Positions 2,093 through 63,066 of a stretch of DNA of 64,000 nucleotides are shown here, one piece after another. The stretch covers positions 2,418,001-2,482,000 of the forward strand of contig NZ_CP050854.1 in assembly GCF_017569925.1 (NCBI RefSeq). Direction: 5' to 3'. Each line of letters opens with the position of its first letter. The stretch's first letter is position 1. The position numbers and the translations under genes were made by a program. Below the pieces are notes generated by a model. That model was not told the origin of the DNA and did no database searches. It worked only from the letters and a program-made list of their open reading frames with translations. The DNA comes from Brenneria izadpanahii (lineage in GTDB: Bacteria > Pseudomonadota > Gammaproteobacteria > Enterobacterales > Enterobacteriaceae).

Positions 2093-2566
2093 CTACTGCT
2101 TAGAGATGTTTACATTGTGTTTAGAATCTGCCAGAGATTTCGTATAGGGACTTCGGTATATCTGGACAAATATTTCCCTGGGTGACGTAAAATGAGCAAC
2201 AGTAATCACGTCATTATTTTTATAACTTCGCCAGCATTCCGCCTCAACATCACACGTTTTTTGTAGTTCATACCCTTCGGCTCTTAAGTAGTTAATAATT
2301 ACGCTACTATCTTTGGCTCCATAAAAATGGACTGTAAAAACAAACTCATCTCTGCCTGCGCCTTTACTGAAGTCAAACCTATAGTTATCTGAGGCTCTTG
2401 GAATTTTTTTTAGTATTTCAGGCGTGTAATACTCGTACTCACGTTTATCCAGCTCGGTATAATGCGCGCTGCTGGCAAACTCCATCCTCACATACGGCCA
2501 GCCAACGACCAGCACAATACCAGCGATGACTACCACACCAATCAGGGCGACGATAGCTTTCCTCAT
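2093..2566 (-). CDS. Unknown protein with one N-terminal membrane segment
   Basis: 157 aa. Residues about 5-25 (IVALIGVVVIAGIVLVVGWPY) form one hydrophobic helix with a positively charged start, so the rest, rich in Tyr, Asp and Lys, should sit in the periplasm or be exported. Two cysteines (CDVEAEC) could form a disulfide. I do not recognise a catalytic motif. The start overlaps the stop of the upstream gene by four bases (ATGA), so the two are co-translated. Such small membrane-anchored partners are common in accessory loci linked to type VI secretion in this group, but the function here is unknown; immunity or adaptor roles are only possibilities. Confidence 0.7.
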   Translation of the reverse strand: MRKAIVALIGVVVIAGIVLVVGWPYVRMEFASSAHYTELDKREYEYYTPEILKKIPRASDNYRFDFSKGAGRDEFVFTVHFYGAKDSSVIINYLRAEGYELQKTCDVEAECWRSYKNNDVITVAHFTSPREIFVQIYRSPYTKSLADSKHNVNISKQ

Positions 2567-3266
2567 AATCCCATCCTGCCGTTGCTGGCACCAAGTATCA
2601 CAAACGTCCCATCATACCGTGGCAGGATCACGTTTCCGGACAGAAAATCGTTATAGGGGACTACCGTCCGCATGAATGGCGGCAAAAGCCCTTTACAGGG
2701 CCGTGAGTGCGGGAATTTATCCGGATCGGGGAACAGCAGCGGCTGGAACGACTCGTTTTTCCAGCTACCGATCTTGCCGTAGTAGTCCCAGCGCTTTAGG
2801 GCTTCGGCCTTGCTCACCGGCCGGATCTGCGCAAAGGGATTCTGAATCGACACCACTCGATAGAAACCCAGCAGGTCTGACACCAGATCCTCACCGCTGA
2901 AGCCGCTATCAGTCATCAGGTTATTGGGAAACGATCTCTGGAACGCCTCAAACTTGCACGCCATCGTCATCATCATCGCCAGCGCAATGCTTTTCTGCTC
3001 CCAGTGAGGCCTCCCGCGCCGGATGCGCCAGACCATCACCTTACCCGAACGGAGCAACCTAAAGGGTGATGTCATCCCCTGTGAATATCTGACATCATAA
3101 AACTCCTTCCCTGATGACTCGCCCTCGGCCATTAATCTTAAGAGGTTGCGTATATCCTCCCCCTCGAATGCCCCAAATCCACCCAGCCAAGTACCTCCGT
3201 GTAAATTAATCCATCTCTAGATGTTGCCGCATATTTCCCGTCAATGATGTCTGATCGCTTACTCAT
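2563..3266 (-). pseudogene. Unknown conserved protein, reading frame broken by one base
   Basis: The open frame downstream begins MAEGESSGKEFYDV (3132), but the frame upstream from an ATG at 3266 reads MSKRSDIIDGKYAATSRDGL and then TEVLGWVDLGHSRG before slipping at a run of five C on the + strand (3159-3163). Adding one base there joins the halves as HSRGEDIRNLLRLMAEGESS, giving 234 aa. The N-terminal part resembles a family I associate with accessory type VI secretion loci of Enterobacterales; I cannot name a function. It heads a two-gene unit with the 157-aa membrane protein. The break may be a sequencing error rather than a real mutation, as five other genes in the window show the same kind of fault. 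Confidence 0.6.
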
Positions 3267-3591
3267 CCTGAATATCCCATTCCATGTTTTGATCCACTGC
3301 GGCCTAATTTACCATAACACCTGATAGCGGAGTGTAAATTGGCTTAATATGTGAGCATGAGCGTTTTCTCCATGGAAGTGCTCATGTGAAAGAGGAAAAA
3401 GTACGGCTTTAGAGCGTAAATGCAAAATTCAGGTTCAGGTTAAATGACGCCTCCTCGCTCAGGTCATCGTTGACGCTCCTTCTTGAGTCTGCGGCGGTCG
3501 TTGCCGGTTAATGGCAGAGGTTCTCAAATCAGAAAGGGCAAAGCCCGACAGGACTTAAAGATCTCCACCGTTAGCGGGGTTTTTTACATCA
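3267..3591. other. Gene-free region between the unknown gene pair and tus
   Basis: No coding frame with support is seen. The stretch must carry the promoter of the minus-strand pair that starts at 3266. Around 3562-3587 an imperfect GC stem followed by GGGGTTTTTT resembles a weak terminator on the + strand, with no + gene visible upstream to use it. Confidence 0.4.
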
Positions 3592-4527
3592 TTATCCCTC
3601 AAACCCCGTATATAGATGTAGCCGGGGTATCAGTAGTCGCAGCGGCATAGCCTGCGGTTTATGCTTATGTTTTATATTATCGGCATCATAGTTATTCAAC
3701 TCGCCGATAATGGGAACCTCTCCGCCAAACTCCTGCTGACACAGTACCAACAGCGGCGACGGGCAGGGGTGTTGGACCTGTTTCTGCTGTTTGGGATACC
3801 ACACTCTGGCAATCGGCTGGACTTTCACCGGACGCTTTATCTTCAGCACCGCATGTTTAGGTAAGCCTATGACCTGTTCTATCTCCCGCTCAACTAATGC
3901 AACCCACTGATCTTTGTTGTACGGCGCGCTGCTTTTGCCCGCTTTCAGGCTTTTTTCCAGCTTGGTCAGTAACTCGGTGCGGGTCATATTCTTGATGATA
4001 TGCTTATTGGCCCAGCCGAAGCGTACCGACGCCGGGTTGGTAATAAGCATTAACGAGCGGTAAGCGCTCAGCGTGATAAGGCCGGGCAGATGGTTATGTA
4101 CAAACTCAAAACGCTGTTCGGGGGCTAACCCCGATTCAACGGCGATGATGTGCTCTAGTTCTTTCTTCAGCGCGTTTATCTCGGTGACGAGCTGTTGCGC
4201 CTGCTGATACTGCCGTTGATCGACGGAAAAACACAGCGCGCCCGGAAGGCGAATGGCGGCTTTGCTGCTGATGGTTTCGGGGTAGTGGTGGATAAATAAG
4301 CGTTGGAAATGCGCCAGCCCCAATTCACAGGCCGCCGGGCCTATATGCTGGCGGACCTCGATGCGCGCTATGGCGTCGTGTTCGGCGCCTTTTTCAATAT
4401 CGGGTAATGAATAAACACGACCAGCCAGTAAACGAAAGGAGGAAAACAGCGGCGGCATCCGCGCCAACTTTTCTTCCAGCGACGTAAAGCAGCGATTCAT
4501 TCGATCAATCAGTGAATAACGATCCAT
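3592..4527 (-). CDS. tus: Tus, replication terminus site-binding protein
   Basis: 311 aa, about the length of E. coli Tus (309). Tus binds Ter DNA as a monomer and stops the replicative helicase from one side only, confining fork fusion to the terminus. Highly conserved stretches include RFGWANKHIIKN (about 170-180), the strand KIKRPVKVQPIARVWYPKQQ (about 228-247) that contacts the major groove, and the end PQAMPLRLLIPRLHLY. The ATG at 4527 is 13 bases from a Ter site, so the protein should repress its own promoter as in E. coli. Its position beside fumC is the E. coli arrangement. No truncation is seen. Confidence 0.97.
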   Translation of the reverse strand: MDRYSLIDRMNRCFTSLEEKLARMPPLFSSFRLLAGRVYSLPDIEKGAEHDAIARIEVRQHIGPAACELGLAHFQRLFIHHYPETISSKAAIRLPGALCFSVDQRQYQQAQQLVTEINALKKELEHIIAVESGLAPEQRFEFVHNHLPGLITLSAYRSLMLITNPASVRFGWANKHIIKNMTRTELLTKLEKSLKAGKSSAPYNKDQWVALVEREIEQVIGLPKHAVLKIKRPVKVQPIARVWYPKQQKQVQHPCPSPLLVLCQQEFGGEVPIIGELNNYDADNIKHKHKPQAMPLRLLIPRLHLYTGFEG

Positions 4528-13590: not shown

Positions 13591-14519
13591 GTGAAAATAG
13601 AACGCATCATCGCCATCATTATGCTGTTATTGGAAAGGGATAGAATCAGCGCTACGGTATTGGCAGAAATGTTCGAAGTCAGCATTCGCACCATATATCG
13701 GGATATTGATACCATCAATTTAGCCGGCATTCCCATTGTGACGTATCAGGGCGTTAATGGCGGCATCAGTATTATGGATAAATATAAAGTAAATAAACGA
13801 TTATTCACCACCGATGATATATCAACGCTGCTAACCGGCTTGGGGAGCCTTTCGTCAGCGTTATCGGGTAAATCGCTCATTAATACGCTGGCTAAAATAG
13901 AAAGCCTGATCCCGCAGCAGCAGGCCGGGGAAATTAAGTTGAAAACCAGTCAGATTGCTATCGACCTGAGCCGCTGGATTGGCTCTCCCAACCTGCAAAC
14001 GCACCTTGAAAAAATCAAACAGGCGTTGAATCAAAGCCTATTGCTGAATTTCAACTACTCCGATGGCAAAGGGAAAAAGAGTCAGCGGCAAATTGAGCCT
14101 TATCAATTGAGATTAAAAGAGGGGAATTGGTATGTTCATGGCTTTTGTCTTGCCAGGCAGGATTTCCGGCTATTCAAAATCTCCCGAATAACGCAGTTAA
14201 ATATATCAGAGCAGGGCTTTACTCCCAGGCCGTTTGAACCTGGAACATTGGCGGGGAATATTGGATAGACAAACCATTAATTGCGGTGACGCTGCTACTG
14301 GATGAGTCCGTCAGGGATTTGATTTCCGAACGCTGCGATGAAGAGAATATTCAGCCCTATGAAGAGAGTAAACTGTTGGTAAATTTTCCCTTTATTGCCG
14401 ATGAACAGGGATATCATTTTCTGCTTAGCCTCGGAGATAAATGCGAATGTCTGCAACCTGAATTCGTCCGTAATGAATTGATCGGCAGGGTTAAAAAAAT
14501 GCTGGCGAACTATAATTAG
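13591..14519 (+). pseudogene. HTH/WYL-domain transcription regulator, frame broken by one base
   Basis: The first frame (GTG at 13591, to 14268) holds a DeoR-type winged helix (about 1-60: LERDRISATVLAEMFEVSIRTIYRDIDTI) and a WYL domain (about 140-210: LLNFNYSDGKG, IEPYQLRLKEGNWYVHGFC). It then slips at a run of four G (14253-14256) and stops. One more G restores LAGEYWIDKPLIAVTLLLDESV and continues to 14519, giving 309 aa, normal for YafY-like regulators. WYL domains sense small ligands or nucleic acids. The gene is divergent from the flavin protein at 13040. The break may be a base-calling error. Confidence 0.7.
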
Positions 14520-18745: not shown

Positions 18746-19094
18746 GGGGAAAGATGTCTACCATATAAGGTAAGTGCCTATAAACATTCAGATCATCCTA
18801 TAGATTATAGCAGCTTGGTGATGATTGGGATTAAGGCGGTTTTTATATGGGGTGTGTACGCAGTTGATTTATGAATTCTCGAGGCCTTTGTCAAAGCTAA
18901 GTTCAGATGTCCGGGGCCGGGCAAATTGAAATGTCCGCTGTGGGCCAGAACCGACCATTAATATCTTTATTTAGATGGCCAAAATCTGTGTTCTGCTACG
19001 ATGACCTGATGCCAAAAAGTGGCTGTATCCAGGACATTTTCCCGATAAAGTAAAACCTAAGCCAGACTGATTTGCATGGAGTAAAAAATTAATA
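18746..19094. other. Gene-free region with short ATGTCC repeats
   Basis: No coding frame is supported. AAATGTCC-like words occur at about 18904 and 18931 in direct orientation, and the reverse form GGACATTTT at about 19031. This could be the degraded end of a mobile element. A GGAG site at 19078-19081 serves the small gene at 19095. Confidence 0.35.
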
Positions 19095-19313
19095 ATGATG
19101 ATTTACGATGTTTTTGGCAGGCACATAGGGGTTGAGCGTAAAGACGAGCGTTGGCTAGTTTATCGTGTTGATTTGACAGAGCGAAAATCATCCCGACTCT
19201 ATGACGTCATCATTCCTGATGATCTTAGTGAAGCCGAAATCCTCGGCTGGTTGGATGATATTTTTCACGAAGCCGCTAACGCACGTCATCCTGAAGTAAG
19301 GAGGATTCAATAA
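19095..19313 (+). CDS. Small conserved acidic protein of unknown function
   Basis: 72 aa, MMIYDVFGRHIGVERKDERW onward, with an acidic C-terminal helix (SEAEILGWLDDIFHEAANARHP). A GGAG site precedes it. It resembles short proteins grouped as DUF7661 in gamma-proteobacteria, but I recall this only weakly. It has no signal peptide or membrane segment. Codon use looks native. It is the last intact gene before dif on this side. Confidence 0.6.
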   Translation: MMIYDVFGRHIGVERKDERWLVYRVDLTERKSSRLYDVIIPDDLSEAEILGWLDDIFHEAANARHPEVRRIQ

Positions 19314-19561
19314 GCCGTTGTGATAATCATCAGGCAACACCGGGCCAGAGCCCAGAATTGAGGCAGCATTACAGAAGCGAGTCCTGGATTCGGTAATCTT
19401 AACTTTAAATAAATATAGCTGTCAGGTTGTAAATGTTCGTATGGAATCCAGATTATCCATCACGATCTGGAGCATGGCACCGAAGAAGTGATGTTTGATT
19501 CAGCGCATCAATACGACCAATGACAGCACCGGGAATACCAGTTCCCGCCCATTCTTATCTT

Positions 19562-19589
19562 GGTACGCATAATGTATATTATGTTAAAT
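19562..19589 (+). other. dif: dif chromosome dimer resolution site
   Basis: 28 bp. XerC arm GGTACGCATAA, central hexamer TGTATA, XerD arm TTATGTTAAAT. Compared with E. coli dif only one base differs (fourth base A instead of G, in the XerC arm). XerCD act here under FtsK control to resolve chromosome dimers. KOPS octamers on either side point towards it. The orientation is as in the standard E. coli notation on the + strand. Confidence 0.97.
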
Positions 19590-19869
19590 AAACTTTATGG
19601 CAGCCTGACGCTGACACTGGACGTTGCTGGTTGGTCACTCCCCCCATTTTTAACTGAAGGCATTGCCTCATCGAACTATCCACGCGTCTTCCGATACCGT
19701 TCTGAATGCTAAGTGTGGGCCTTCGGTGCTCCTGAGATAGGAAGCAAAAAAGCAATCACATTGCAATTGCAAACCTGATAATCGCTGTCATCAGTATGAC
19801 TATCTCAGTTTCGCAGGTAAAAACCGAAAGAAACCTCACGGTAAAGTTCGCACAATAGTGTTTGCTAAA

Positions 19870-19911
19870 GAGGCCGCGCGGCCGATATCTTCACTGCGGC
19901 CTTTTCAACAT
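19870..19911. repeat. Hairpin repeat, copy 1 (AGGCCG...CGGCCTTTTCAACAT)
   Basis: AGGCCGC and GCGGCCT bracket about 18 bases and are followed by TTTCAACAT. The last 16 bases, GCGGCCTTTTCAACAT (19896-19911), recur exactly at 21927-21942 with a similar upstream arm. The hairpin plus T run resembles a terminator. The two copies flank the IS2-like element and the hydrolase fragment. Confidence 0.6.
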
Positions 19912-20111
19912 AACGAGTCGTACATTATGCGCACTAGATTTGGTTGAATGGCTCTTCCCTTCCCTATTTTACATATGACTGATTATTCAATAGATGGAAG
20001 ATTACTTATCTTTTCCTTTTCACGTGTCAAAGCGCAGATAGAATATCTAGACTGGCCCCATAGATCACCAGACACTTCGACTCTCTTAAAATAAGAGGTA
20101 GTCTTGGAACT

Positions 20112-20507
20112 ATGTTTAATACCAGTCAGAACGATAAGATGGTTGACGTGTTATCAGGGCCTGAACGGCGTCGCCGCCGTACTCCGCAGGAAAAAATTGC
20201 CATTATTCAGCAGACTATGGAACCCGGTATGACCGTGTCTCATGTCGCGCGCCTGCATGGCATCAATGCAAACCAGATATTCAAATGGCGCAAGCAATAT
20301 GAAGACGGCTCGCTGACGGCTGTTGCATCGGGCGAGGAAGTGGTGCCGGCCTCCGAGCTCGCTGCCGCCAATAAGCAAATCCGCGAGCTCCAGCGCCTTC
20401 TGGGCAAAAAGACGATGGAAGCCGAGATCCTTAAAGAGGCCGTGGAGTTCGGTCGGGCAAAAAAATGGATAGCGCATGCGCCCTTGTTGCCCGGGGACGA
20501 CGACTAA
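20112..20507 (+). CDS. insC: IS2-like orfA (InsC-type helix-turn-helix protein)
   Basis: 131 aa. [49 protein letters not shown] (residues about 16-64) is the helix-turn-helix that binds the element ends, followed by a leucine zipper ([33 protein letters not shown]) for multimer formation. It overlaps orfB by 43 bases in another frame; in IS2 a -1 slip joins the two to make the transposase. The sequence closely follows E. coli InsC and is intact. Confidence 0.92.
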
Positions 20508-21344
20508 CCGACGTCTGCCGGAGTATTGGTGTGTCGCGTGCGCAACTGAGCATCAGGGTTCACCGGCCATCTGACTGGCAGGATCACAGACGGCAGCCCC
20601 GTTCTGACGATACCACCGTATTGTCCCGGATAAACATGGCGGTGGCTGACCTGCCGACGTATGGTTATCGCCGTGTGTGGGCGCTGCTGCGACGGGAGTC
20701 AGAGCGGGACGGCCTGCCTGTGGTTAATGCGAAGCGGGTGTATCGCATTATGAGAACACATAATTTGCTTCTTGAACGTAAACCCGCTGCTCCTTGCCGT
20801 AAGCGGGCCCATAAGGGGCGCGGTAGCAGTAGCGGAAAGTAACCGGCGCTGGTGCTCAGATGGCTTTGAGTTCCGCTGTGATAATGGCGAAAAGCTGCGG
20901 GTGACCTTCGCGCAGGACTGCTGCGACAGGGAGATCATTGACTGGGCAGCGAGCACCGGAGGCTATGACAAAGAAACGGTGCAGGATGTCATGTTGGGTG
21001 CGGTGGAAAAACGCTTCGGAAGGCAGTTGCCAACAGAGTCGCTAGAGTGGCTGACGGATAATGGTTCAGCCTACAGGGCTCATGAAACGCGGGCGTTCGC
21101 CCGGTTGCTGGGACTGGAGCCTTGCACGACAGCAGTGCGAAGCCCGGAAAGCAACGGCATAGCAGAAAGCTTCGTGAAGACGATAAAACGGGACTACATC
21201 AGCATCATGCCGAAACCGGACAGCCAGGCAGCGGTGATGAATCTGGCGGTGGCGTTCAGTCATTACAACGAACATCATCCGCATAGTGCACTGGGATATC
21301 GCTCACCACGGGAATATATACGCAGGAAGTTATCGCAACCGTAA
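20465..21344 (+). pseudogene. insD: IS2-like orfB (InsD-type integrase domain), frameshifted
   Basis: The first part (20465 to about 20815) covers [17 protein letters not shown] through KRAHKGR. The frame then shifts by one base near 20815-20825, where GCGCGGTAGC has one G too many for GRVAVAES, and the rest reads on in another frame to 21344. With one base removed it is 292 aa, near the 301 of InsD. The DDE catalytic core is present: [27 protein letters not shown] and [19 protein letters not shown]. Since this is a +1 change, unlike the missing-base faults elsewhere, it may be true decay. Confidence 0.85.
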
Positions 21345-21381
21345 GAGAGCAAAAACGTCTGGATATATAGGGTCAAATCCA

Positions 21382-21766
21382 GTCGACAGCTTCAACAACT
21401 ATCTTGAATTATCTAAAAAACTTTGCTATCCGCGTTAGTGACGATTTTTCATATGACGAAACATCAATTCACGGAATAGATTGGTCATCTAATTATTCCA
21501 CTTCCGCCGGTAACGTTAAATGCATATCCGTGCCGTTACTAACTATGGGGATGACCGGGAGTTGGGAATATTTATCCGTAGAAACAATTTATCAAAATGC
21601 GAAAAGTCCTGATAAAAAGATTGCATTTGTAGATGGCGCTAATCATCTTTTTCAAACCTGCACTCAATGTGAAAAAAGCAAAGGACAATATGGGGATACG
21701 GCTAATACTCTATTCAACTATATAGACAAGTGGATATCTTTCCCTGGTAGGTTTGATAACTTTTAA
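21382..21766 (+). pseudogene. C-terminal piece of an alpha/beta hydrolase cut by the IS element
   Basis: The frame is open from the IS right end and reads STTILNYLKNFAIRVSDDFS, then ISVPLLTMGMTGSWEYLSVET, IAFVDGANHLFQTC and NTLFNYIDKWISFPGRF. This is the end of an alpha/beta hydrolase: the late Asp/Glu region and the His of GANHLF are where such enzymes place their last catalytic residues. The N-terminal half with the nucleophile is missing; a TTG at 21404 could start a 120-aa peptide, but there is no reason to think it is active. I do not recognise the N-terminal half on the other side of the element. Confidence 0.7.
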
Positions 21767-21900
21767 GCAATTAATAATAACACCATAGATCCCCTTGAAT
21801 AACACACCCTAGAATTGTTAGTCTAGGGCGATAAATAAGAGTTCATCGCCATTCGCCAGTCCCTCAGGGGCTTCGTCCATTTCTGCTATGCCGCCTGAAT

Positions 21901-21942
21901 AGGCCGACACAGGAAAGATTTTCGCAGCGGCCTTTTCAACAT
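21901..21942. repeat. Hairpin repeat, copy 2
   Basis: AGGCCG and CGGCCT bracket about 22 bases, followed by TTTCAACAT, the same plan and the same 16-base end as 19896-19911. It lies just past the 3' end of the DUF943 gene (stop at 21962, minus strand). Confidence 0.6.
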
Positions 21943-21961
21943 TTGAATTTTGCTGTTTTGC

Positions 21962-22354
21962 TTAAAAACTATACTGAATGTTGCCGTCACGAGTGCGCCG
22001 AATCATCATAAGAATATTTTTGTCGATGCAGTTCCGAGGAGGCTTCACATCGCTAAAGCACCGTCTGTCCTCTTTCCCTTCCTCTTTATACCCATCTCCA
22101 AAATCGTATATGGTAATGAAAAATGGCCCTTCCTCTCCATTTGGAATGTTGTATTTCTTTCTGATTTCTCCTTGATTGTGCTGCCACCAATTAATTCTGG
22201 CTGCGTCGGTAAACGGCAATCTATCTACCAGAACCTGTGCGGTATTTCCGTCATAGTGCACGGCAATAATATTTATCGCCCGGTTATTCAGAAACAGGTA
22301 ACATGCAACACTAAACAGAGCTACCAAAATTAACGCTATTAGCAATCGCATCAC
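21962..22354 (-). CDS. DUF943 family membrane-anchored protein
   Basis: 130 aa. Residues 4-26 form one N-terminal membrane helix. The rest has the DUF943 hallmarks as I know them: INIIAVHYDGNTAQVLVDRLPFTD, INWWQHNQGEIRKKYNIP and FGDGYKEEGKEDRRCFSDVKPPRNCI, with two conserved cysteines. The family is common in type VI secretion-linked and orphan loci of Enterobacterales; its function is not established. Its start overlaps the DUF3289 stop by four bases (ATGA), so the two are translationally coupled. A partner or immunity role towards DUF3289 is inference only. Confidence 0.85.
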   Translation of the reverse strand: MMRLLIALILVALFSVACYLFLNNRAINIIAVHYDGNTAQVLVDRLPFTDAARINWWQHNQGEIRKKYNIPNGEEGPFFITIYDFGDGYKEEGKEDRRCFSDVKPPRNCIDKNILMMIRRTRDGNIQYSF

Positions 22355-23196
22355 AGCCCACCTTCTATATTAATCACTGCTTCCATATTGGTAAGAAACG
22401 GATGAAAGCCAAATTTATTAAATCGTTGTAATACAAACCATATTTTAAAAAACTGAAACTGGTTGAATTTCTGTTTTCGAATATCATCAACATCCAAACC
22501 GAAATGGTCTTGACCTATGAACTTAACTCTGGCTTTCCAGCTTCTTTCTCCAACATCAAGGCTGAGTATATCTATCTTTGTGGCATGAACATCGTGAACG
22601 GTAATACCCATCCCGTTTATTTTATCGAATATAAATGAATCGAACTTTGGAAGTATTGTATCCCTAATAGCGGAATCAAGCTTATTCAGTTTGTCTTGCG
22701 GGTAGCCCCTATTGTCATAATCAATGAATAGATCAATAACTTCCTGTATAGCCAGTTTTGTGCTCTTTGATGAATTATCAGAAATAATTCGCTCCCTATA
22801 TGCAGCGTTTAACTGCATATCAGTGAATGGAGTCCCTGATTTTCTTTGAAAGTGCTTTAGCATTTGATTGATTAAATACTTATACGGACCATAAAAGGAA
22901 TAAAGAAGTGATGTAGCCTGCATTTCTTCAAATAATAACCTAGCACACTCCTGGATGCTGACTGCGTTGCCACGATGGACACCGCCATAAACCCCTGCAA
23001 ATCTGGATTGTGGGTTATCAAATGCTGTTAGTCTGGTTAATGTGTAAGGGTCAACAACATTTGATACATTCGTCAACCCAAACTCTCCTTTTAATCTATC
23101 CTCAGAAATATCGCCATAGCGCATATCGTTAGCGCCGTAATCATTAAAACTTTTCTGTGTGGTGTATATCGTCTGTGGAAATCTGGTGATAATCAT
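22351..23196 (-). CDS. DUF3289 family protein
   Basis: 281 aa, soluble, no signal peptide. The start FPQTIYTTQKSFNDYGANDMRYGDISEDRL is typical of DUF3289, as are FAGVYGGVHRGNAVSIQECARLLFEEM (about 70) and the C-terminal QDHFGLDVDDIRKQKFNQFQFFKIWFVLQRF, which look like a structured C-terminal domain. DUF3289 proteins are found near VgrG/Hcp genes and in orphan islands and are candidate type VI cargo, but activity is unproven. It is the first gene of a two-gene unit with DUF943. No VgrG, Hcp or PAAR gene is in the window. Confidence 0.85.
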   Translation of the reverse strand: MIITRFPQTIYTTQKSFNDYGANDMRYGDISEDRLKGEFGLTNVSNVVDPYTLTRLTAFDNPQSRFAGVYGGVHRGNAVSIQECARLLFEEMQATSLLYSFYGPYKYLINQMLKHFQRKSGTPFTDMQLNAAYRERIISDNSSKSTKLAIQEVIDLFIDYDNRGYPQDKLNKLDSAIRDTILPKFDSFIFDKINGMGITVHDVHATKIDILSLDVGERSWKARVKFIGQDHFGLDVDDIRKQKFNQFQFFKIWFVLQRFNKFGFHPFLTNMEAVINIEGGL

Positions 23197-23431
23197 ACCC
23201 GTTACTCCCTTAACTGATAGTTAATTAATCCATCTTTCCATAATACCTCAACAAAAAACGGGGTTCGAGGACCAGTGCAGTAAAAAAACACGTTGAGAAG
23301 CATCAAAAATCGAAATCATTAATCTCTTTTTTGCAGCTACGACCAGAACAGATCGATCATCCAGCACTCCCATCGTTGCTCTGATAACAGATAGCTAAGG
23401 GCTGCCCTGCTCCCAGGTTTCCTTGTTTCAG

Positions 23432-23872
23432 TCAAATAAGTTCCAACATTTCTAAGATGTCCTGCGGGTAAACAACCTCATGCGTTGTTCTTAGTTCTTC
23501 TGCATTCCACCAGTGATGATCGCTGATAACCTTTTTTTCATTACTGCTCCAACTGTCATTACTGATCTCATGGTTAGCCACCCGCACAACGTAAAACTTC
23601 TCCAGTGCTGCAACCATCTCACCGCTCGGTAATTTCATCTCGAAATTTCTTTGTGCAACGCACCGGCCAACATCTCTACGTACAATGCCGGTTTCTTCCA
23701 TTAGCTCTCTGATAGCTGCTTGCTCGAATGATTCGCCTTGCTCGACACCGCCGCCTGGCGTAGCCCAGTATGATTTGCCCGCCAGAGCGTCCATACTGTG
23801 TGTAAACTTAAACAATAAAACCTGTCTTAAAGAATCGACAATCAAAAGTCTGGATGCTGGCCGGGATTTCAC
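23432..23872 (-). CDS. NUDIX hydrolase
   Basis: 146 aa. The complete NUDIX box GGGVEQGESFEQAAIRELMEETGI lies at about residues 42-65 and matches GX5EX7REUXEEXGU with all metal-binding glutamates. NUDIX enzymes cleave nucleoside diphosphates linked to another group, for example oxidised dNTPs or capped compounds; the substrate is not readable. The start is GTG at 23872 with a strong AGGAG site. It stands alone, upstream of osmC but separated by over 170 bases. Confidence 0.85.
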   Translation of the reverse strand: MKSRPASRLLIVDSLRQVLLFKFTHSMDALAGKSYWATPGGGVEQGESFEQAAIRELMEETGIVRRDVGRCVAQRNFEMKLPSGEMVAALEKFYVVRVANHEISNDSWSSNEKKVISDHHWWNAEELRTTHEVVYPQDILEMLELI

Positions 23873-24045
23873 ATTATCTCCTGTTTGCTGTTAAGGCGGG
23901 GGCAAACCAATAGAGGCAGCCTAATATTCTCAGGGAAATGTTATTATATTTCAATGGATTATTTGTGATTTTTTGACGGCACGCCGAGATTATACTTATA
24001 CATCAACGTGCCATATGACGTGTTGCTGCTGTCTACGATTACGAA

Positions 24046-24474: not shown

Positions 24475-24777
24475 GCTAGCTCCTTTAATCGCTTCGTATT
24501 GACGCCTTGACAGACGCCGCCGCCGTGACATTCAATGCTGTCACATCTCCCTTTAACCCTAGTTCACATTCGAAAGGAAAGCCAAACCAGGGGGTGTTTC
24601 AGTCTTTAATATCTGGCATGGCCTGGTATTTCTGCTTCATTTCTTTTATGAATTGCCATTCTTTTTCTAGGTTTATTGTACGATCTCGGTTCTGGCAGGC
24701 CGTCACGCATAATTTCCTGAGCGCGCCATCATTTTCCTTTACAATGACCATTCCAGCCATTAATCAGGTCGATACTT

Positions 24778-33309: not shown

Positions 33310-33333
33310 TGCCGTATCAAAAGCGATACGGCA
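33310..33333 (+). terminator. Hairpin after the DJ-1/PfpI gene
   Basis: TGCCGTATC and GATACGGCA form a 9-bp stem 12 bases after the stop codon. There is no strong T run after it, so termination efficiency is uncertain. Confidence 0.6.
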
Positions 33334-33460
33334 ATCATTATATCGCAGCCCAATTCCATTGCCTGAATAAGGCAGTATGCAAATAACAAAATATCAGTGT
33401 GATTTAGCTTACGTTTTTTCAGATTGAAATCGTGATGTCTTGCTATTTTCACCCGTCATC

Positions 33461-34254: not shown

Positions 34255-35006
34255 ATGATCCCGGAAAAGCGAATTATCCGCCGCATCCAGTCTGGCGGTT
34301 GTGCGATCCACTGTCAGGATTGCAGTATCAGTCAACTATGCATTCCATTTACCTTAAATGAGCACGAGCTCGACCAGCTCGATAATATCATTGAAAGGAA
34401 AAAGCCTATCCAGAAAGGACAAGCTCTCTTCAAAGCTGGCGATGAGTTAAAATCTTTATACGCTATCCGTTCGGGTACGATTAAGAGCTACACAATCACC
34501 GAACAAGGTGATGAACAAATTACCGGTTTTCATCTGGCTGGCGATCTGGTCGGTTTTGATGCCATCGGTAATGCGCAGCACCCTAGCTTCGCGCAAGCGT
34601 TAGAGACGTCAATGGTATGCGAAATTCCATTTGAAACGCTGGATGATCTCTCAGGGAAAATGCCCAACCTGCGTCAGCAGATGATGCGTTTGATGAGCGG
34701 CGAGATTCGCGGCGACCAGGATATGATCCTGCTGCTGTCGAAGAAGAATGCCGAAGAACGTCTGGCGGCCTTCATCTATAACCTGTCCCGCCGGTTTGCC
34801 GAACGCGGGTTCTCCCCCGCGAGTTTCGCCTGACCATGACCCGCGGCGATATCGGCAACTATCTGGGGCTAACCGTTGAAACCATCAGCCGTTTGCTCGG
34901 CCGTTTTCAAAAAAGCGAGATTCTTGCGGTAAAGGGCAAATACATCACTATTGAGAATCTTGGCGCGCTCTCCGAGCTTGCCGGCTCCTCGCCTAATCGC
35001 GCCTAA
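34255..35006 (+). pseudogene. fnr: FNR, anaerobic global regulator, frame broken by one base
   Basis: The sequence follows E. coli FNR almost residue by residue: cysteines at [14 protein letters not shown] (cluster ligands 20, 23, 29) and SMVCEIP (122), the cyclic-nucleotide-type barrel and the dimer helix. At a run of five C (34814-34818) the frame slips and stops at 34833 with SPASFA. One more C gives [32 protein letters not shown], the DNA-binding helix-turn-helix, ending at 35006 as a 250-aa protein, the E. coli length. As read, FNR would lack its DNA-binding domain. The perfect conservation after the break argues for a sequencing error. An FNR box lies in its own promoter. Confidence 0.93.
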
Positions 35007-36170: not shown

Positions 36171-37558
36171 TTACAGCGCTTTCAGAATCGCTTCTACGCT
36201 GTCTTTGGCATCGCCAAATAGCATCTGTGTATTTTCTTTGAAGAATAACGGGTTCTGAACGCCGGCATAGCCGGTATTCATCGAGCGTTTGAACACGATG
36301 ACATTCTGCGCTTTCCACACTTCAAGAACCGGCATTCCCGCAATCGGGCTATGCGGATCTTCCTGCGCGGCCGGGTTTACCGTGTCATTGGCGCCGATGA
36401 CCAACACGGTATCGGTATCGGCGAAATCATCATTGATTTCATCCATTTCCAGCACGATATCGTAAGGCACTTTCGCTTCGGCCAACAGCACGTTCATATG
36501 ACCAGGCAAGCGACCCGCAACCGGGTGAATGCCGAACCGAACATTAACGCCGCGGGCGCGCAGCTTAGCGGTAATATCGTGTACCGGATACTGTGCCTGC
36601 GCTACCGCCATGCCATATCCGGGGTGATGATCACCGAGCTTGAGTTCTTGAGTAACTCAGCCACTTCTTCCGCTGAAGCCTCACGGTATTCGCCCATCTC
36701 TTCGCTTTCACCGGTGGAAGAGCCGTCGGTGCCGAAACCACCGGCAATCACGCTGATAAAGGAACGGTTCATCGCCTTACACATGATGTAAGACAGGATG
36801 GCCCCGGAAGAACCCACCAAAGCACCGGTCACAATCAACAGGTCGTTGCTTAACATGAAGCCCGCGGCGGCGGCGGCCCATCCTGAGTAGGAGTTCAGCA
36901 TGGAAACCACGACCGGCATGTCGGCGCCGCCGATGGAGGCGACCAAATGCCAGCCGAACACCAATGCGATTGCGGTCATGACCAGTAAAGCGAGGGTTTG
37001 CGCCACAACGCTGTCGGTATTAATAAACGCCAGAAGCAGCAGGAAAGAGACAACCAGCGCCGCCAGGTTCATTTTGTGACGATGAGGCAGCATCAGCGGT
37101 TTGGATGAGATTTTACCGCGCAGCTTGCCAAAAGCGACAACCGAACCGGTAAAGGTTACCGCACCGATGAAGATACCCAGGAAGACTTCCGTCAAATGGA
37201 TATTCACCATCACCGGGTCGGTGATTTCGCCGTGATCAAGAAAGCTGTTAAATCCAACCAGAACGGCGGCCAGCCCCACAAAGCTGTGAAGAATGGCAAC
37301 CAGTTCCGGCATTTCGGTCATTTCAACTTTACGCGCCAGATAAACGCCGATCGCGCCGCCAATTACCATGGCGAGAATGATCCAGCCAACGTTTCCGGTT
37401 TCAGGCCCAAGGATGGTGGCGATCAACGCTATCGCCATCCCGACGACGCCGAAGATGTTCCCCTGACGAGACGTTTCGTGCTTGGATAAACCAGCCAGAC
37501 TAAAAATAAATAAGATCGCGGCAACAATGTATGCAGCTGTAACTAATCCACCAGACAT
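36171..37558 (-). pseudogene. pntB: NAD(P) transhydrogenase beta subunit, frame broken by one base
   Basis: The upstream part (37558 to 36602) is the membrane domain with nine or so helices ([20 protein letters not shown] onward) and the hinge. The frame slips at CCGGGG (36619-36624), where IITPDMAWR ends the first frame, and [21 protein letters not shown] begins the next. One more base restores [12 protein letters not shown], with the NADP-binding loop, and gives 462 aa, equal to E. coli PntB. The lower part has [15 protein letters not shown] and [14 protein letters not shown], which hold NADP. PntAB uses the proton gradient to make NADPH. The break is likely a base-calling error. Confidence 0.93.
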
Positions 37559-51648: not shown

Positions 51649-51683
51649 CTTGAAACGGTAACTGAAGCTCGGCACTTCTTTAA

Positions 51684-52070
51684 TCAGTCATCAATTTCCC
51701 GGTAAAAGCAAAAACTGAATAAACCGCATAAAATGCCAGGTAACCATGCAGTGATCATTTCAAAAGTAGGATTGGGATATATCTCTACTGCATTTACCGT
51801 AGCCTGCGCAAGCGTAACAGCGGCTACGTCTCCCAGCAGACACATAATCCGGTACACGCCTTCTCTATCCTTAAATTTCGCTGTTCGCCAAAACAGTGAC
51901 AACGCAAGCGTGAATAAAGCGAGAAATGCGAGAGTGAAAGCATCTTTAATTATGACTTCAGAGAGCAGCAAAGTGATGCCAAATATAGCAACTGCTAACA
52001 GTGCAGGGCGGAAAAAAAATTTCCATAACTGTTTGTATTTTCTAATGTTAAATTTATGAGTGGTAATCAT
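51684..52070 (-). CDS. Unknown four-helix membrane protein
   Basis: 128 aa. Helices at about 20-38 (FFRPALLAVAIFGITLLLS), 44-61 (AFTLAFLALFTLALSLFW), 73-92 (VYRIMCLLGDVAAVTLAQA) and 104-121 (EMITAWLPGILCGLFSFCF). I do not recognise the family. The N-terminal start is basic, so it should lie in the cytoplasm. It is alone between the convergent ychF terminator and a gene-remnant region, which suggests accessory DNA. Confidence 0.6.
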   Translation of the reverse strand: MITTHKFNIRKYKQLWKFFFRPALLAVAIFGITLLLSEVIIKDAFTLAFLALFTLALSLFWRTAKFKDREGVYRIMCLLGDVAAVTLAQATVNAVEIYPNPTFEMITAWLPGILCGLFSFCFYREIDD

Positions 52071-52274
52071 TTTTTCCCTGATATAGCTTTTCGGATTAGA
52101 GGATATGAGCTTATTAGCTCAACCCCTTGGTTTTTCCATACGATATAATCCCTATACTCTCATTTCTTAAGGATGCGATCGATTAATCTCCATTCCAACG
52201 CTTCCTCCGCTCTCATGGCCCCGCCAGCGACCCTCCCCCCCTGCAATAAAAGAAAATTGCTTTGCGACCGGCGT

Positions 52275-52418
52275 TCACTTCCGTCGGCATAATACTAAAA
52301 CCGCCGCCAGCGCCGCGTAAGACATCCCTGCGACCGCCATGCCGTTCCACCCGAAATGTCCCGCAACTATGGCGCCTAATGCCGAACCGGCCGCACCACC
52401 GAGAAAGTAGGCGGTCAT
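52275..52418 (-). pseudogene. C-terminal remnant of an MFS transporter
   Basis: The minus-strand frame reads TAYFLGGAAGSALGAIVAGH, then FGWNGMAVAGMSYAALAAVLVLCRRK and a stop. This is the last two helices of a major facilitator transporter. The rest of the gene is absent: at about 52415 the homology ends where the LysR remnant begins on the other strand. Confidence 0.75.
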
Positions 52419-52630
52419 ATGATTTTGAGGCGCTGCTGCTGGCGGCGATTGCCGGTATTGGCTTGTGTTACCTGCCAACCTGGGTTACCGCGCGCGCCAC
52501 TGCCGGCGGACAATTAATTACTGTGTTTGACGATCCGGCGCAACGCCACGACGATATCCATCTGCTGCGCGCACTGAGAAATCCGCCGGCCAAGTTGCAA
52601 GTGTTCGCACAGGCGCTGCTGGGAGCATAA
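52415..52630 (+). pseudogene. C-terminal remnant of a LysR-type regulator
   Basis: The + frame reads YDFEALLLAAIAGIGLCYLP and on through AGGQLITVFDDPAQRHDDIHLLRALRNPPAKLQVFAQALL to a stop at 52630. This is the end of a LysR effector domain; nothing upstream on the same strand supplies the rest. It abuts the MFS remnant in a back-to-back arrangement. Confidence 0.75.
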
Positions 52631-52644
52631 ATCGGCCAGACAAA

Positions 52645-53532
52645 TCAGAGCGGAAACAGGTTTTCCACGATGAAGTCAACGAACACCCGAATCTTGGGCG
52701 AAAGGTGACGGCCCGACGGCCACAATACATGGAAAACCATCATATCCCGGTTGTAATCGTCCAGGATGGTCATCAAGCGGCCTTGCTGCAACTGCGAGCG
52801 CACCGCGATTTCGGGCACACAGGCAATGCCCAGCCCCTGCTCCGCGAAGCATACCTGCGGGTCAAGACTATTGGTCACCATACTGGCGGGGAGTTCAATG
52901 GCGGGCATACCATCAGGGCGCGACAATGGCCAGACATCCTGTTTACCCGTAGCGGGAAAGCGATAGAGCAGGCAGGCATGCCCTGCCAGATCTTCCGGTT
53001 TAAGTGGAATACCGGCCTTGTCAAAGTACTCGGGCGCGCCCACTATCACTCTGCGGCAGACCCCCAGACGTCGCGCGGTAAGCCGGGAGTCGCTGGGCGT
53101 TCCGGTGCGGACAACGGCATCGAACCCCTCCTCAATAACATCCACCAGACGATCTGAATAATCGATATCAAGCGCTATATCGGGATAGCGCCGCTTGAAT
53201 TCCCCCAATCTGGACATAAAAAGCGTACCGATCGATGGGAGGCTGATGCGCAACTTGCCCTGCGGCGTTTTCTTCGTTTGCAGCAGCTCGGCTTCGGCAG
53301 ATTCCACCTCACTCAGAATGCGCCGGCATCGCTCCAGAAACAGCGCGCCTTCCGGCGTCAGACTGACGGTACGGGTTGAACGGTGGAACAGGCGCACTTC
53401 CAACCGATCTTCCAGCCGAGCGATGGCCTTGCTTACCGCCGATGCGGAGATGCCTAACTGCTGACCAACCGCCGTGAAACTACGGGAATCGCCGACCCGC
53501 ACGAAGATGTGGAGTGAGCCGAGACTATCCAT
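52645..53532 (-). CDS. LysR-type regulator
   Basis: 295 aa. N-terminal winged helix: LHIFVRVGDSRSFTAVGQQLGISASAVSKAIARLEDRLEVRLFHRSTRTVSLTPEG (about 7-63), of the CrgA/AaeR-like subgroup. The effector domain follows (about 92-290). It is divergent from the MFS exporter at 53670 across 137 bases, so it probably controls that gene. The ligand is unknown. Confidence 0.87.
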   Translation of the reverse strand: MDSLGSLHIFVRVGDSRSFTAVGQQLGISASAVSKAIARLEDRLEVRLFHRSTRTVSLTPEGALFLERCRRILSEVESAEAELLQTKKTPQGKLRISLPSIGTLFMSRLGEFKRRYPDIALDIDYSDRLVDVIEEGFDAVVRTGTPSDSRLTARRLGVCRRVIVGAPEYFDKAGIPLKPEDLAGHACLLYRFPATGKQDVWPLSRPDGMPAIELPASMVTNSLDPQVCFAEQGLGIACVPEIAVRSQLQQGRLMTILDDYNRDMMVFHVLWPSGRHLSPKIRVFVDFIVENLFPL

Positions 53533-53669
53533 ATAACTCCCCTAATGATGACGAATTTGTCACAAGTGTTATTCACTCTAGCCTATTTTTCTTCTATGCG
53601 GGAATTGGCAGCATGACAAACAGTTTTCAGCAAGGGGCTGAATGACGTCGATCCGGGGATATATGATTA

Positions 53670-54863
53670 ATGAACAAAACGACTACGGCGATTCTAGACA
53701 AGAACAGCGAACGCCTGCCGCTGCCGGGACTGTTTGCTTTGGCGATGGCGGCTTTTCTCACGCTACTGACCGAAATCCTGCCCGTGGGATTACTTTCCGC
53801 CATTGCGCAAAGCCTGGATACCTCTGAAAGTCTGGCGGGTCAGTTCATCACCGCCTATGCGTTGGGGGCGTTGATCGCAGCCATCCCTGTCACCGTGCTT
53901 ACGCAAGGCATGCGGCGGCGTCCGCTGCTCTTGACTGCGATCTTCGGCTTTGCGGTAGTCAATTTTATTACCGCGACCTCCGCTAGCTATACCATCTCGC
54001 TCATAGCGCGTTTTTTCGCCGGCGTTTTCGGCGGCGTCGTCTGGTCGCTGCTGGCTGGCTATGCGGTGCGCATGTCGCCATCCCATCTCAGCGGGCGCGC
54101 CATAGCAATCTCCGGCGCGGGTGCGACTATCGCGCTGGTGCTCGGCGTGCCGCTCGGTTCCTTATTGGGGCAAGCCATCGGCTGGCAAGGCGCTTTTGGT
54201 CTGATGACGGCGCTGGCGTTGGCTCTCATCGCATGGATAGTCGCGGTCGTGCCGGATTTCCCAGGGCAGACCAAAGAACAACGCCAGAGGCTTGTCAGCG
54301 TCTTTCTGAGGATCGGCATTCGTACCGTGCTGTTTGTGGTCTTTACCTTCATTATCGCCCACAACATTCTCTACATCTACATCGAGCCTTTACTCATCCC
54401 TTCGGGATTATCCGCGAATGTGGATATCGTGCTATTCGTCTTCGGTTCGGGGGCAATCATCGGGCTGTGGTGCGTCGGCGCGCTGGTCGATCGCCGGTTG
54501 CAACGGCTTGCCGTGGCGAGCATTGCCGTTTTCGCCCTCGCCTCTCTGCTGTTGGGCCTTTGGGGCGATCTTCCGCAGGTGGTTTATCCTTCCGTGCTGG
54601 TATGGGGGCTCGCTTTCGGCGGTTTTGCCACAATCACGCAAACCGCATTATCTTGTTTCGCCGGCGCCTCGGTGGATGTAGCGCAATCCTTCTATACCAC
54701 CGGCTGGAACACCGCCGTTGCCGGCGGAGGCATCGTCGGGGGCATTTTATTGGGCCGGACGGGTTCAGCATCATTCGCATGGGCGGCGATCGGCATTCTG
54801 CTTGCTTCTTTACTGGGGGTGCTTTTCATGAACAGACGGCTGGCCAACAACCACAATCGTTGA
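53670..54863 (+). CDS. MFS exporter (DHA1, SotB/AraJ-like)
   Basis: 397 aa, twelve helices. LPGLFALAMAAFLTLLTEILPVGLLSAIAQSL (about 18-49) is the first-helix motif of the sugar-efflux/arabinose-type DHA1 exporters. Motif A in loop 2-3 is weak: VLTQGMRRRPLLL. The substrate is unknown; purine nucleosides, sugars or drugs are possible. It is divergent from a LysR regulator that likely controls it. Confidence 0.83.
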   Translation: MNKTTTAILDKNSERLPLPGLFALAMAAFLTLLTEILPVGLLSAIAQSLDTSESLAGQFITAYALGALIAAIPVTVLTQGMRRRPLLLTAIFGFAVVNFITATSASYTISLIARFFAGVFGGVVWSLLAGYAVRMSPSHLSGRAIAISGAGATIALVLGVPLGSLLGQAIGWQGAFGLMTALALALIAWIVAVVPDFPGQTKEQRQRLVSVFLRIGIRTVLFVVFTFIIAHNILYIYIEPLLIPSGLSANVDIVLFVFGSGAIIGLWCVGALVDRRLQRLAVASIAVFALASLLLGLWGDLPQVVYPSVLVWGLAFGGFATITQTALSCFAGASVDVAQSFYTTGWNTAVAGGGIVGGILLGRTGSASFAWAAIGILLASLLGVLFMNRRLANNHNR

Positions 54864-54948
54864 AGTGAACGCGCCATAAGCAGGATATGGGGAATGGCGT
54901 CGCCCAAAAACCGCTTTCCAATAAGGAAAGCGGTTTAAGGAAGAGAAC

Positions 54949-59595: not shown

Positions 59596-60291
59596 ATGAA
59601 AAATCATCACTCATTATCCATGTTTAGAACGCTCGCTTTTATTATATTACCTTTACTGCCATTGCAGTCCTTCGCTGAAGTTTCAGTAATTAAAAGCCCC
59701 GGTATCAAGAATGCTAATGTTGAGCATGCCAAAATCGTTTATGTCGGCGACGTGACCGAAGGTAAAACCATAGATGTAATGTCCACGCTGGATGAGATTA
59801 ACGCCACTTACCCTAATCTGAAGGATATATATTTTTATATCAATAGCTACGGCGGCGACATGGACAACGGTTATATGACCTATGAGGCGATAAAAAGCTC
59901 GCCGGCCCCGGTGATCACAGTAAATATGTCAATGGTCGCCTCTTCGGCTACCATGTTTTATTGCGCAGCAAAAGAGCGTCTGGTTATGAAAGGCGCATCA
60001 TTTCTCCTCCATCCGGCGGCTTCATCCAACATCAATAGGGAGTATTTAAAACCTGATGAGGTAAATACGGTGCAACAAATGAATATCACATATAACAATA
60101 TGTTCGATACGATATATAAGAGCTGTACAACGTATACCGCTGATGAGCGCCAAAAAATCCTGTATAGCGAAAGCACCAGAGCATTAATCAATGCCGATCA
60201 GGCGGCGGAGAAAAAAATGACGACCGGTATTGCAGAAGCAATGGTCAATGCCGACGTATCTTATTACATTTCTGAGAAAGAGACGCACTAA
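59596..60291 (+). CDS. Secreted ClpP-like serine protease
   Basis: 231 aa. A signal peptide (1-27, ending SFA) is followed by a ClpP/crotonase-type domain. IYFYINSYGGDMDNGYMTYEAIKSSPAPVITVN (about 78-110) matches the ClpP strand-turn-helix (INSPGG in ClpP). The nucleophile should be Ser117 in MVASSATMFYCA and the His is His139 in FLLHPAAS; a third acid residue lies later. Canonical ClpP is cytoplasmic and paired with an ATPase, so an exported form must work without one. It is a stand-alone gene, possibly with a role in envelope or extracellular proteolysis; substrates are unknown. Confidence 0.8.
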   Translation: MKNHHSLSMFRTLAFIILPLLPLQSFAEVSVIKSPGIKNANVEHAKIVYVGDVTEGKTIDVMSTLDEINATYPNLKDIYFYINSYGGDMDNGYMTYEAIKSSPAPVITVNMSMVASSATMFYCAAKERLVMKGASFLLHPAASSNINREYLKPDEVNTVQQMNITYNNMFDTIYKSCTTYTADERQKILYSESTRALINADQAAEKKMTTGIAEAMVNADVSYYISEKETH

Positions 60292-60531
60292 ACAGTAATC
60301 TTCGTTGTTGTTACGCAGCGTTGCGGTCAGGTAATATCAGCACATTTGCGATATTACCTGTCGATATTTTATTTCTGAAATGTCGGTGTTATTTCCCCGC
60401 CATCTTGTCGGCGATCGATGTATCCCATTAGTCACTTCTTTTTTAGTCGTCAATGGAATAACGCTATTCTAATGAAATAAAATAAATTATTGCTGAATTA
60501 ATTCTCATGGCAGAAAGCCGGCGATATGTTA
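60292..60531. other. Gene-free region
   Basis: About 240 AT-rich bases between the convergent ClpP-like and ClbS-like genes. No perfect hairpin, gene or operator is identified. Confidence 0.35.
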
Positions 60532-61067
60532 TTAACCGTTATTCTGGCAATCCTTTGTTGATTGGCGATTTTTCTCCCAGTCACGAAGCCGGCCGGCCGC
60601 GTTTTTATAGGGAGAGGCGGTATTAAATTGAATCATTCTGCCGCGCGTCCACTTACCATACCAGGGCGCGCCGTAGAGTTGTTCATTGGAGTATCCCTCG
60701 ATCAACGCAAGCAGACTAGCTTTGTTATCCTCCAGTAACTCAACCAATACCGGCCACTTCTCTATATGGGCGTAATCCTGATAAAACTTTTGCGCCAACA
60801 GTCCGAGTTGATTCCATTTGAAACCCGTCTCGGGAAAGTCGATCGGCAGGTCTTGTCGTTCGCATTCATGCCATTTCAGCACCAGTTCGCCCCACCCCAG
60901 CAGGTAAGCCACCAGATTGGCTGCGCTCATCCGCGTATCTTTTGCGTGTCCGGGCATTTCAGGAACAAAGGCGCGTTCGGGGGAACTGCGTTGATGCGTT
61001 TCATCAACGACGCAAAATTACGGTTAATCGCCTTAATTAATTCGTCTTTTGTATCAGGTACCGACAT
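60532..61067 (-). pseudogene. ClbS/DfsB-like four-helix protein (DUF1706), frame broken by one base
   Basis: The frame downstream (from 60957) reads MPGHAKDTRMSAANLVAYLLGWGELVLKWHECERQDLP and NTASPYKNAAGRLRD, clearly ClbS-like. The start lies in another frame: ATG at 61067, MSVPDTKDELIKAINRNFAS. One more G in the run of five at 60979-60983 joins them as NAVPPERAFVPEMPGHAKDT, giving 178 aa. ClbS hydrolyses colibactin cyclopropane as a self-protection enzyme; relatives without a pks island probably have other roles. The YLLGWGELVLKWH histidines suit a DinB-like metal or catalytic site. The break may be a base-calling error. Confidence 0.8.
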
Positions 61068-61151
61068 ATAACCTCTTCAACTGAAAGTCTGAGAGAAAAG
61101 ATTAGCGTCAGCATATCCGGTTAACTTTGTTATCGATCATATTGCGGGGTA

Positions 61152-61670
61152 TTAGTCTTCAGGCGAGAAGCAAAAATCAATTTCACTACAGCTTTCGCAG
61201 GATGGAGAACGGCACATCAGTTCCCCGTCCTGCGTCAGGCAAACCTGGCGATAGAAAAATTTCTTCCAGCGCATGTTTTTTTCATTCATGCCGACCAGCG
61301 GCGTAAAACAGACCGTCATTAATTCCCGCAGCTCTGCGCGTGAAGCCAGCCCTAAATCCTGCCACAGATGATTAAACCCCATCGCGGCGCTGGCGATTAA
61401 ACGATGCATTGGCGCGGCCTGTTCCGTCATGTATTGAGCGAGCCAGTCGGCTAGCTGTCCGCACTCCTGACGACGCGGCATAAGCAAGCCGCGCAATAGT
61501 TCATCCTGCTGATGCAAGTACTCCGGCCGCGCCGGTTCCGTTATCTCTAGCCGTTGCAGCAACCCTTTCCAGGCGGCATCATCCAGATTCATCCGGGTCG
61601 GAAAGCGCGACAGGCCGCGCAGGTGATTGTCGACCAGGTAGCGCAGCCATATGTCCGGCGTCTGATGCAT
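61152..61670 (-). CDS. nifQ: NifQ, molybdenum donor for nitrogenase cofactor
   Basis: 172 aa from the ATG at 61670, which shares its A with the nifB stop (TAATG); an upstream start to 61721 is not needed. NifQ carries a Mo-Fe-S cluster to the FeMo-cofactor pathway. HLWQDLGLASRAELRELMTVCFTPLVGMNEKNMRWKKFFYRQVC matches Klebsiella NifQ, and the C-terminal CRSPSCESCSEIDFC is its C-X4-C-X2-C-X5-C metal motif. Translational coupling with nifB is as in nifBQ of Klebsiella. Confidence 0.95.
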   Translation of the reverse strand: MHQTPDIWLRYLVDNHLRGLSRFPTRMNLDDAAWKGLLQRLEITEPARPEYLHQQDELLRGLLMPRRQECGQLADWLAQYMTEQAAPMHRLIASAAMGFNHLWQDLGLASRAELRELMTVCFTPLVGMNEKNMRWKKFFYRQVCLTQDGELMCRSPSCESCSEIDFCFSPED

Positions 61671-63066
61671 TATGCCACCCCCTTCTGGTTGACCTCCGGC
61701 GGAGTGCGCTCGGCGCGCCATTGTTCCAGCGTTTCACGAACGGGTTGCCAGGCGCCGTTGACGTATGGTTCTATTCCTTCTGATTCCAGACGCTGCCAGG
61801 GCGTCAGCCCGATACGGGCGCAAAAGACCGCCTTTACGTCAGACAGCAATGCGATAACCCGTTCCAGGCGATCTTCCGGCTCATCTTCAGCGCAATCATC
61901 CGGCCCCTGGCAATAGCGTTGAGTAAAGCGTTCGCCCAGCGGGATGATACCGGCTCTGGAAATGCTGAAAATATGGAAGCGATCCGCATGGCCGAAATGC
62001 TGATCGATGACATCGCCGCTCCCGGTCGCCACCGCAACCAGGCAGGCGTCCGGCTCTTCAGACTCCCCTGCGTTGCGATGCCGGCCTGAATGCTGGCGCG
62101 GCGAAACAGTGACGGCAGCATCGGTTCAGGCTGTTGCGGTAGCGATGATAGCGGGAACTCCTGGCTGCGGTCATCGCCCAGCATGCCAATCGCATCGGCC
62201 CGGCATTGATTGCAGTGCGCCATCTGCGGCAGATGACGTCCGCACTGGTTGCGCGCCGCTCCCAACTCATCCGCGTTGGGTTCGCGAACCCCATCCAGAC
62301 CGAAACGCGTGCCGTGTTCCGGTTTGGCTATCAGCGGCATGACATTATGCAGCACGGCGCCCCACTGGCGAGCCTGTAAACTGACGTCATTCAGATGCGC
62401 GGCATTGATATCCGGGATCAGCACCGAGTTCACCTTTACCATGATGCCGCGTTCGGCCAGCTTGCGAATGCCCTCGCCCTGCCGTTCTATCAGCAAATCG
62501 GCGGCCATGCGGCCCCGCAGCTTATCCCCTTCATACCACAGGTGGTCGTAGATTTTTTCGGCGATGACCGCATCGATGGCATTAACCGTGACGGTGACGT
62601 GATCGACGCCCACGTCAATCAGCCGATCGACCACATCTGGCAGCATCAGTCCATTGGTCGATAGGCACAGTTTGATATCCGGCATCTCCGCGCGCAGCCC
62701 TTCCAGCGTTTTGAAGGTTCGGGCGATATTCGCCAGCGGATCGCCCGGCCCCGCAATGCCGATAACCGATAACTGGGGGATCCGGGAGGCGACATACCTG
62801 GCTTTGGCGACGGCCTGTTCAGGCGATAACAGCTCAGAAACCACGCCAGGACGGGATTCGTTACTGCAATCATACTTCCGGTTACAGTAATTGCACTGCA
62901 GGTTGCAGGCTGGCGCCACGGCCAGATGCATACGTGCATAACGGTGATGCGCCTGTGGCGAGTAACACGGATGGCGGGAAATTTTATCCGCCTGCAGAGG
63001 CGTAAAGTGCGCCGTATTCATCGAACCGCATGAACGCTTGCCTGAAAATGATGCGTTATTTGCCAT
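61670..63066 (-). pseudogene. nifB: NifB, FeMo-cofactor core synthase, frame broken by one base
   Basis: The radical-SAM half is intact: PACNLQCNYCNRKYDCSNESRPG (CX3CX2C, about 53-75), GIAGPGDPLANI and CLSTNGLMLPD. In the second half the frame slips at a run of four C on + (62066-62069). As read it ends in unrelated residues to 61834, while the frame to 61670 carries VATGSGDVIDQHFGHADRFHIFSISRAG, the NifX-like domain. One more base joins them as ATQGESEEPDACLVAVATG, giving 465 aa, near Klebsiella NifB (468). NifB builds the NifB-co iron-sulfur-carbide core. A sigma-54 promoter and NifA site lie upstream. The break may be a base-calling error. Confidence 0.92.

Follow-up and report, generated by a model that had tools for sequence, protein, structure and literature searches.

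The window analyzed here is a 64,000-nucleotide stretch (positions 2,418,001 to 2,482,000) of the single 5,330,697-base contig of a Brenneria genome, referred to below as G000. Judged by PntA, the named relatives nearest to it belong to Brenneria and, after that, to Pectobacterium. Six of its genes are interrupted by a change of reading frame, and these are listed in Table 1 together with the other features that we discuss. The initial annotation had described six genes broken by one missing base in runs of G or C, and in our alignments with a relative or with database homologues the two frames meet with a −1 change at or beside a called run. Its placement of the runs also held except at pntB and nifB, where it was off by one or two bases: 36619-36624 reads CCGGGG and 62066-62069 reads CCCT, neither of which is a run, and the true runs are those given in the table. 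At all six sites, the run as called is 4 or 5 long.

Table 1. Split genes and other features of the window (positions count from the first base of the window).
Feature	Position	Strand	Reading frame	Site of frame change	Family entry
Gene of a 234-aa family, function unassigned	2563..3266	-	two frames	C run 3159-3163	
Ter/Tus-type terminus-binding protein gene	3592..4527	-	one open frame		PF05472
HTH/WYL-domain regulator	13591..14513	+	split	G run 14253-14256	
IS3-family element	20100-21381				
Downstream transposase part of the IS3-family element	20465-20842 and 20772-21344		two ORFs		
DUF3289 gene, function unassigned	22351-23196		open		
fnr	34255..35003	+	split	C run 34814-34818	NCBIfam PRK11161
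pntB	36174..37558	-	split	G run 36621-36624	NCBIfam PRK09444
ClbS/DfsB-like (DUF1706) gene	60565..61067	-	split	G run 60979-60983	PF08020
nifB	61673..63066	-	split	C run 62065-62068	

The IS3-family element in the window shares 97.3% identity with the listed copies from Salmonella plasmids. It is one base longer than the eight plasmid copies listed, a difference opposite in sign to an omission, and it is outside the count of 19 breaks reported below. The DUF3289 gene lies close to this element, where no block of the relative aligned.

The nearest relative genome that we compared, G002, shares 90 to 92% DNA identity with G000 (91% over the fnr-pnt block) and is collinear with it over most of the covered part of the surrounding 464 kb (400 kb of G002 was used). 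The 310-aa WYL protein and the 465-aa NifB protein of G002 each align to the window in two frames, with a net change of −1. The same net change was found for FNR (250 aa; residues 1 to 191 and 188 to 250 match in different frames) and for PntB (462 aa; residues 1 to 313 and 313 to 462), and these two lengths are presumably those of the Escherichia coli proteins. In the WYL regulator, the Pfam WYL and HTH_11 domains both fall in the first piece, and nifB, in two pieces, is the sole copy above the family cut-off in G000. At the sites corresponding to the breaks in fnr, pntB, and nifB, G002 lacks any run of at least four, so that for these three genes the alignments establish a net change of −1 and we infer from the statistics given below that the base lost would be a member of the run.

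The initial annotation had proposed a comparison with related genomes, and this comparison yielded intact counterparts of fnr, pntB, nifB, and the WYL regulator. The first three are whole in each of four genomes (G001, G002, G005, and G008), while the WYL regulator was matched whole in G002 only. Across 80 named loci, pntB was whole in every one; fnr was matched in 58 and was whole in 57 of these. The sole locus with fnr in two frames is that of Serratia rubidaea NCTC12971 (L034), from a collection that we take to have been sequenced with PacBio technology, and its split may be the same artifact. When an independent sequence of nifB from the same species was sought, no match to NifB above 88% identity was found among the best 120 of the 8,000 scored.

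Because the 234-aa and ClbS-like genes both lie outside the blocks aligned with G002, database homologues were used for them instead. Among the best 120 of 461 homologues of the 234-aa gene, 77 are 234 aa long and 97 need two frames to match the window; for 89 of these 97 the upstream match stops at 3159, and for 8 it stops at 3156. The other 23 matched a single frame, as their short upstream piece was below our limits. For the ClbS-like gene, two frames were needed for 43 of the best 120 of 1,763 homologues, of which at least 41 end within 60966-60990 and one at 60506. The remaining 77 of the 120 matched in one frame only, the upstream piece of ~30 residues being unmatched at ≥45% identity.

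We compared three regions of G000 with G002, namely, 2,218,001-2,682,000 (which holds the window), 380,001-780,000, and 3,850,001-4,250,000. Gene calls in the relative rested on an open frame together with the way mismatches were distributed over codon positions. A break was counted only when both of its flanks showed this distribution, which removed 127 events when G002 ORFs were taken as the genes and 149 when G000 ORFs were. Within the window, the screen for further breaks covered everything except the stretches without a G002 block (about 1972-3608, 18832-24678, 32552-33458, 51649-54876, and 60291-61047). In total, 602 genes, 672,369 aligned gene bases, and 877,513 aligned bases were compared. 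We found 19 breaks in 18 of the 602 G000 genes, one gene carrying two, and they were distributed 12, 5, and 2 over the three regions in the order given, as expected if a base-calling error produced a pattern running through the whole assembly. The WYL regulator, nifD, a 5,557-aa gene, and a peptide synthetase gene, all of them broken, also carry frame events that the filter dropped.

Every one of the 19 breaks is a −1 change of a single base with G000 the shorter sequence, and every one touches a called G/C run of at least 4, against a background of 4,739 of 132,535 sampled gene positions (3.6%; binomial P of about 3e-28). None lies at an A/T run of that length, and runs of A/T are about twice as common in the same genes (5,600 versus 2,589). 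The number of breaks per called G/C run was 6 of 2,099 at length 4, 9 of 429 at length 5, 3 of 47 at length 6, 1 of 12 at length 7, and 0 of 2 at length 8, so that the rate climbs from 0.3% to 2.1, 6.4, and 8.3% for lengths 4 through 7, the last two values resting on three breaks and one. When the roles of the two genomes were exchanged, G002 showed two breaks, one of 11 bases and one of 1 base, neither of them at a run. Both the dependence on run length and the absence of the pattern from the relative are predicted by an error in base calling.

Gaps of a single base told the same story within genes. At G/C runs, G000 was the shorter in 25 cases and G002 in 2; at A/T runs, the gaps were balanced at 6 versus 6; and elsewhere the counts were 48 (G000 shorter) versus 40. 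A base-calling error also predicts the same excess between genes, where it was not clearly seen: the intergenic gaps at G/C runs numbered 29 versus 26, which is almost no asymmetry. Because real indels are frequent between genes, we regard this test as uninformative, and it gives no support to the base-calling idea. A tblastn screen of the first two regions, noisier in that it also reports overextended ORF ends, gave 26 events in G000, 16 of which were −1 changes with a G/C run nearby; the other 10 were of other kinds, four of them +1, and many lay at ORF ends. The corresponding screen of G002 gave 19 events, of which 1 was a −1 change with a G/C run nearby. The tblastn screen also placed a 690-aa gene that is whole in G000 (579404-581476) +1 out of frame in G002 near a run of six C's, possibly a single error, or else a real change, in the relative.

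The broken genes have no function common to all of them among the 17 of 18 that we could name by NCBIfam from the relative's intact copies, the 5,557-aa gene being outside that scan. Threonyl-tRNA synthetase, methionyl-tRNA formyltransferase, OppC, FNR, PntB, NifB, NifD, and the NAD(P)H-hydrate repair enzyme scored above their cut-offs, and a peptide synthetase, a peptidase, an S/N-oxide reductase, regulators, and transporters fell below equivalog cut-offs. The fmt gene is in two pieces, and no second copy above the cut-off was found in G000. ThrS is essential. G000 has a single thrS copy above the family cut-off, and its break falls near residue 20 of 642, as judged from the relative's protein, which matches the E. 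coli threonyl-tRNA synthetase (PDB entry 1qf6) over its full length. An error of base calling would ignore the importance of a gene, and a break in the only thrS copy is what it would produce. The first in-frame start codon after the break would yield 603 aa, and a shortened ThrS made from this internal start is conceivable, but on the sequence it would need special pleading.

The replication terminus lies in the window, as shown by the Ter/Tus-type gene, by a reversal of GC skew between about 3001 and 61000, and by the placement of dnaA at base 16 of the contig. In a growing culture, the terminus is usually where the fewest reads fall. Break densities were 12 per 273,431 gene bases in the region of the terminus and 5 per 186,090 and 2 per 212,848 in the other two, but the heterogeneity among the three is slight (chi-square P = 0.08) and their order is unlike that of distance from dnaA. 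That the window looks worse through low read depth at the terminus is therefore only suggestive, and in a literature search we found no paper linking residual assembly errors and the terminus.

Could these genes be broken in the cell? Genuine decay, in which the strain would truly have lost them in the manner of host-restricted pathogens, is very improbable. The WYL, ClbS-like, and 234-aa genes and the transporters are probably dispensable, and nifB and nifD are both broken, as they might be in a decaying nif cluster; single sites, above all those in the WYL, ClbS-like, and 234-aa genes, could be real. Decay should, however, have left stops, deletions, and frameshifts of mixed sizes, and the initial annotation had argued that it would not pick only G/C runs and only −1 changes, an argument strengthened by the finding that all of the counted breaks are of that one kind. 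No broken gene contains an in-frame stop, and of the 27 in-frame stop differences that we found, only 2 are located in the 10% to 95% portion of a gene, so that there is little sign of general decay. The only copy of thrS is among the casualties, which also speaks against decay. Third positions are still favored by mismatches downstream of the breaks (854 of 1,180, or 72%, versus 1,253 of 1,903, or 66%, upstream and 28,176 of 37,602, or 75%, in unbroken genes, all in the first two regions), although a very recent break would leave the same pattern.

In a real mutator, faulty repair or an error-prone polymerase would be dropping single bases from G/C runs, and Pol IV is known to make −1 slips in runs of G. 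Such a mutator is scarcely credible here. The MutS, MutL, and MutH domains are in open frames of 861, 668, and 237 aa (860, 681, and 251 aa in G002), and no defect was found among these three genes. Defects in mismatch repair also produce +1 changes and changes at A/T runs, whereas the in-gene gaps at A/T runs are balanced, and a mutator should not leave an essential gene broken. A strain mutating by −1 specifically at G/C runs, in which anything from dozens to about a hundred genes would be newly broken and ThrS would be made from an internal start, is likewise highly improbable. Programmed frameshifting or phase variation is as poor a candidate as the general mutator. Homopolymer runs can serve as switches or slippage sites, as the GeneTack survey describes (PMC3711429), but the phase-variation screen described there takes runs of 7 or more, against 4 or 5 at the six sites in the window. 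In the relative, the sites in fnr, pntB, and nifB lack a run of four, and each gene is read in one frame; the relatives' genes are unsplit, the slippery site is not conserved, and the broken genes share no function. Decay, a mutator, and programmed frameshifting were all rejected.

The reading that we favor, with a probability of about 95%, is that these are single-base omissions in G/C homopolymers left uncorrected in a long-read assembly, such that the six genes would only appear to be broken and are most likely intact in the cell. The sequencing method would undercount G/C runs, so that a run would now and then be written one base short; the consensus would not have been fully corrected with accurate reads; and each omission within a gene would shift its frame and create a false pseudogene. 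From the pattern in the assembly, we infer that the machine rather than the cell is probably the cause. The initial annotation had read the six breaks as a signature of base calling, a view that the identical breaks in all three regions both support and extend beyond the window.

This kind of artifact is already documented, and we find it in all three of the regions sampled. In the account given for Streptomyces leeuwenhoekii, an early PacBio assembly was missing C's or G's from runs at least three long; the resulting frameshifts were substantiated by protein comparison, and the omissions were corrected with Illumina short reads, 2,934 bases being inserted in 7.9 Mb (PMC4487206). Our case resembles that one in the G/C omissions within runs, the resulting frameshifts, and their recognition by protein comparison; it differs in that the S. 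leeuwenhoekii sequence was corrected with short reads, whereas ours is known from the assembly alone, and in that the density we detected is much lower. The reports on Homopolish (PMC8011154) and Kastor (PMC12007338) describe nanopore homopolymer indels that make false pseudogenes, and the homopolymer indels, frameshifts, and excess of pseudogenes visible against relatives are shared with our case. In Kastor's R9.4 example, however, long A/T runs have about twice as many errors as G/C runs (PMC12007338), unlike the 19 breaks counted here. The restriction to G/C and to omissions thus seems to lean toward a PacBio-type cause over nanopore R9.4, and it is no proof of one. In the GeneTack survey, singleton frameshifts that pass BLASTp validation are expected to stem from sequencing error and not from genuine indels (PMC3711429); our events likewise are frame transitions without counterparts in other genomes, but unlike the singletons of that survey, they have one common context and one direction.

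The test used here examines the direction and run context of breaks relative to a single related genome, with the roles exchanged as a control; it works without reads and suits any complete genome. At 19 breaks in 877,513 aligned bases, the whole 5.33 Mb would carry roughly 115, an extrapolation from only the strictest events. A literature search found no paper joining Brenneria, nifB, and pseudogene. Automatic annotation would probably call FNR, PntB, NifB, NifD, ThrS, and Fmt pseudogenes, and a reader could wrongly infer that the strain is unable to fix nitrogen or sense oxygen. The caution of the initial annotation, that these genes should not be read as pseudogenes without a check, is upheld, and they should be treated as intact until reads say otherwise.
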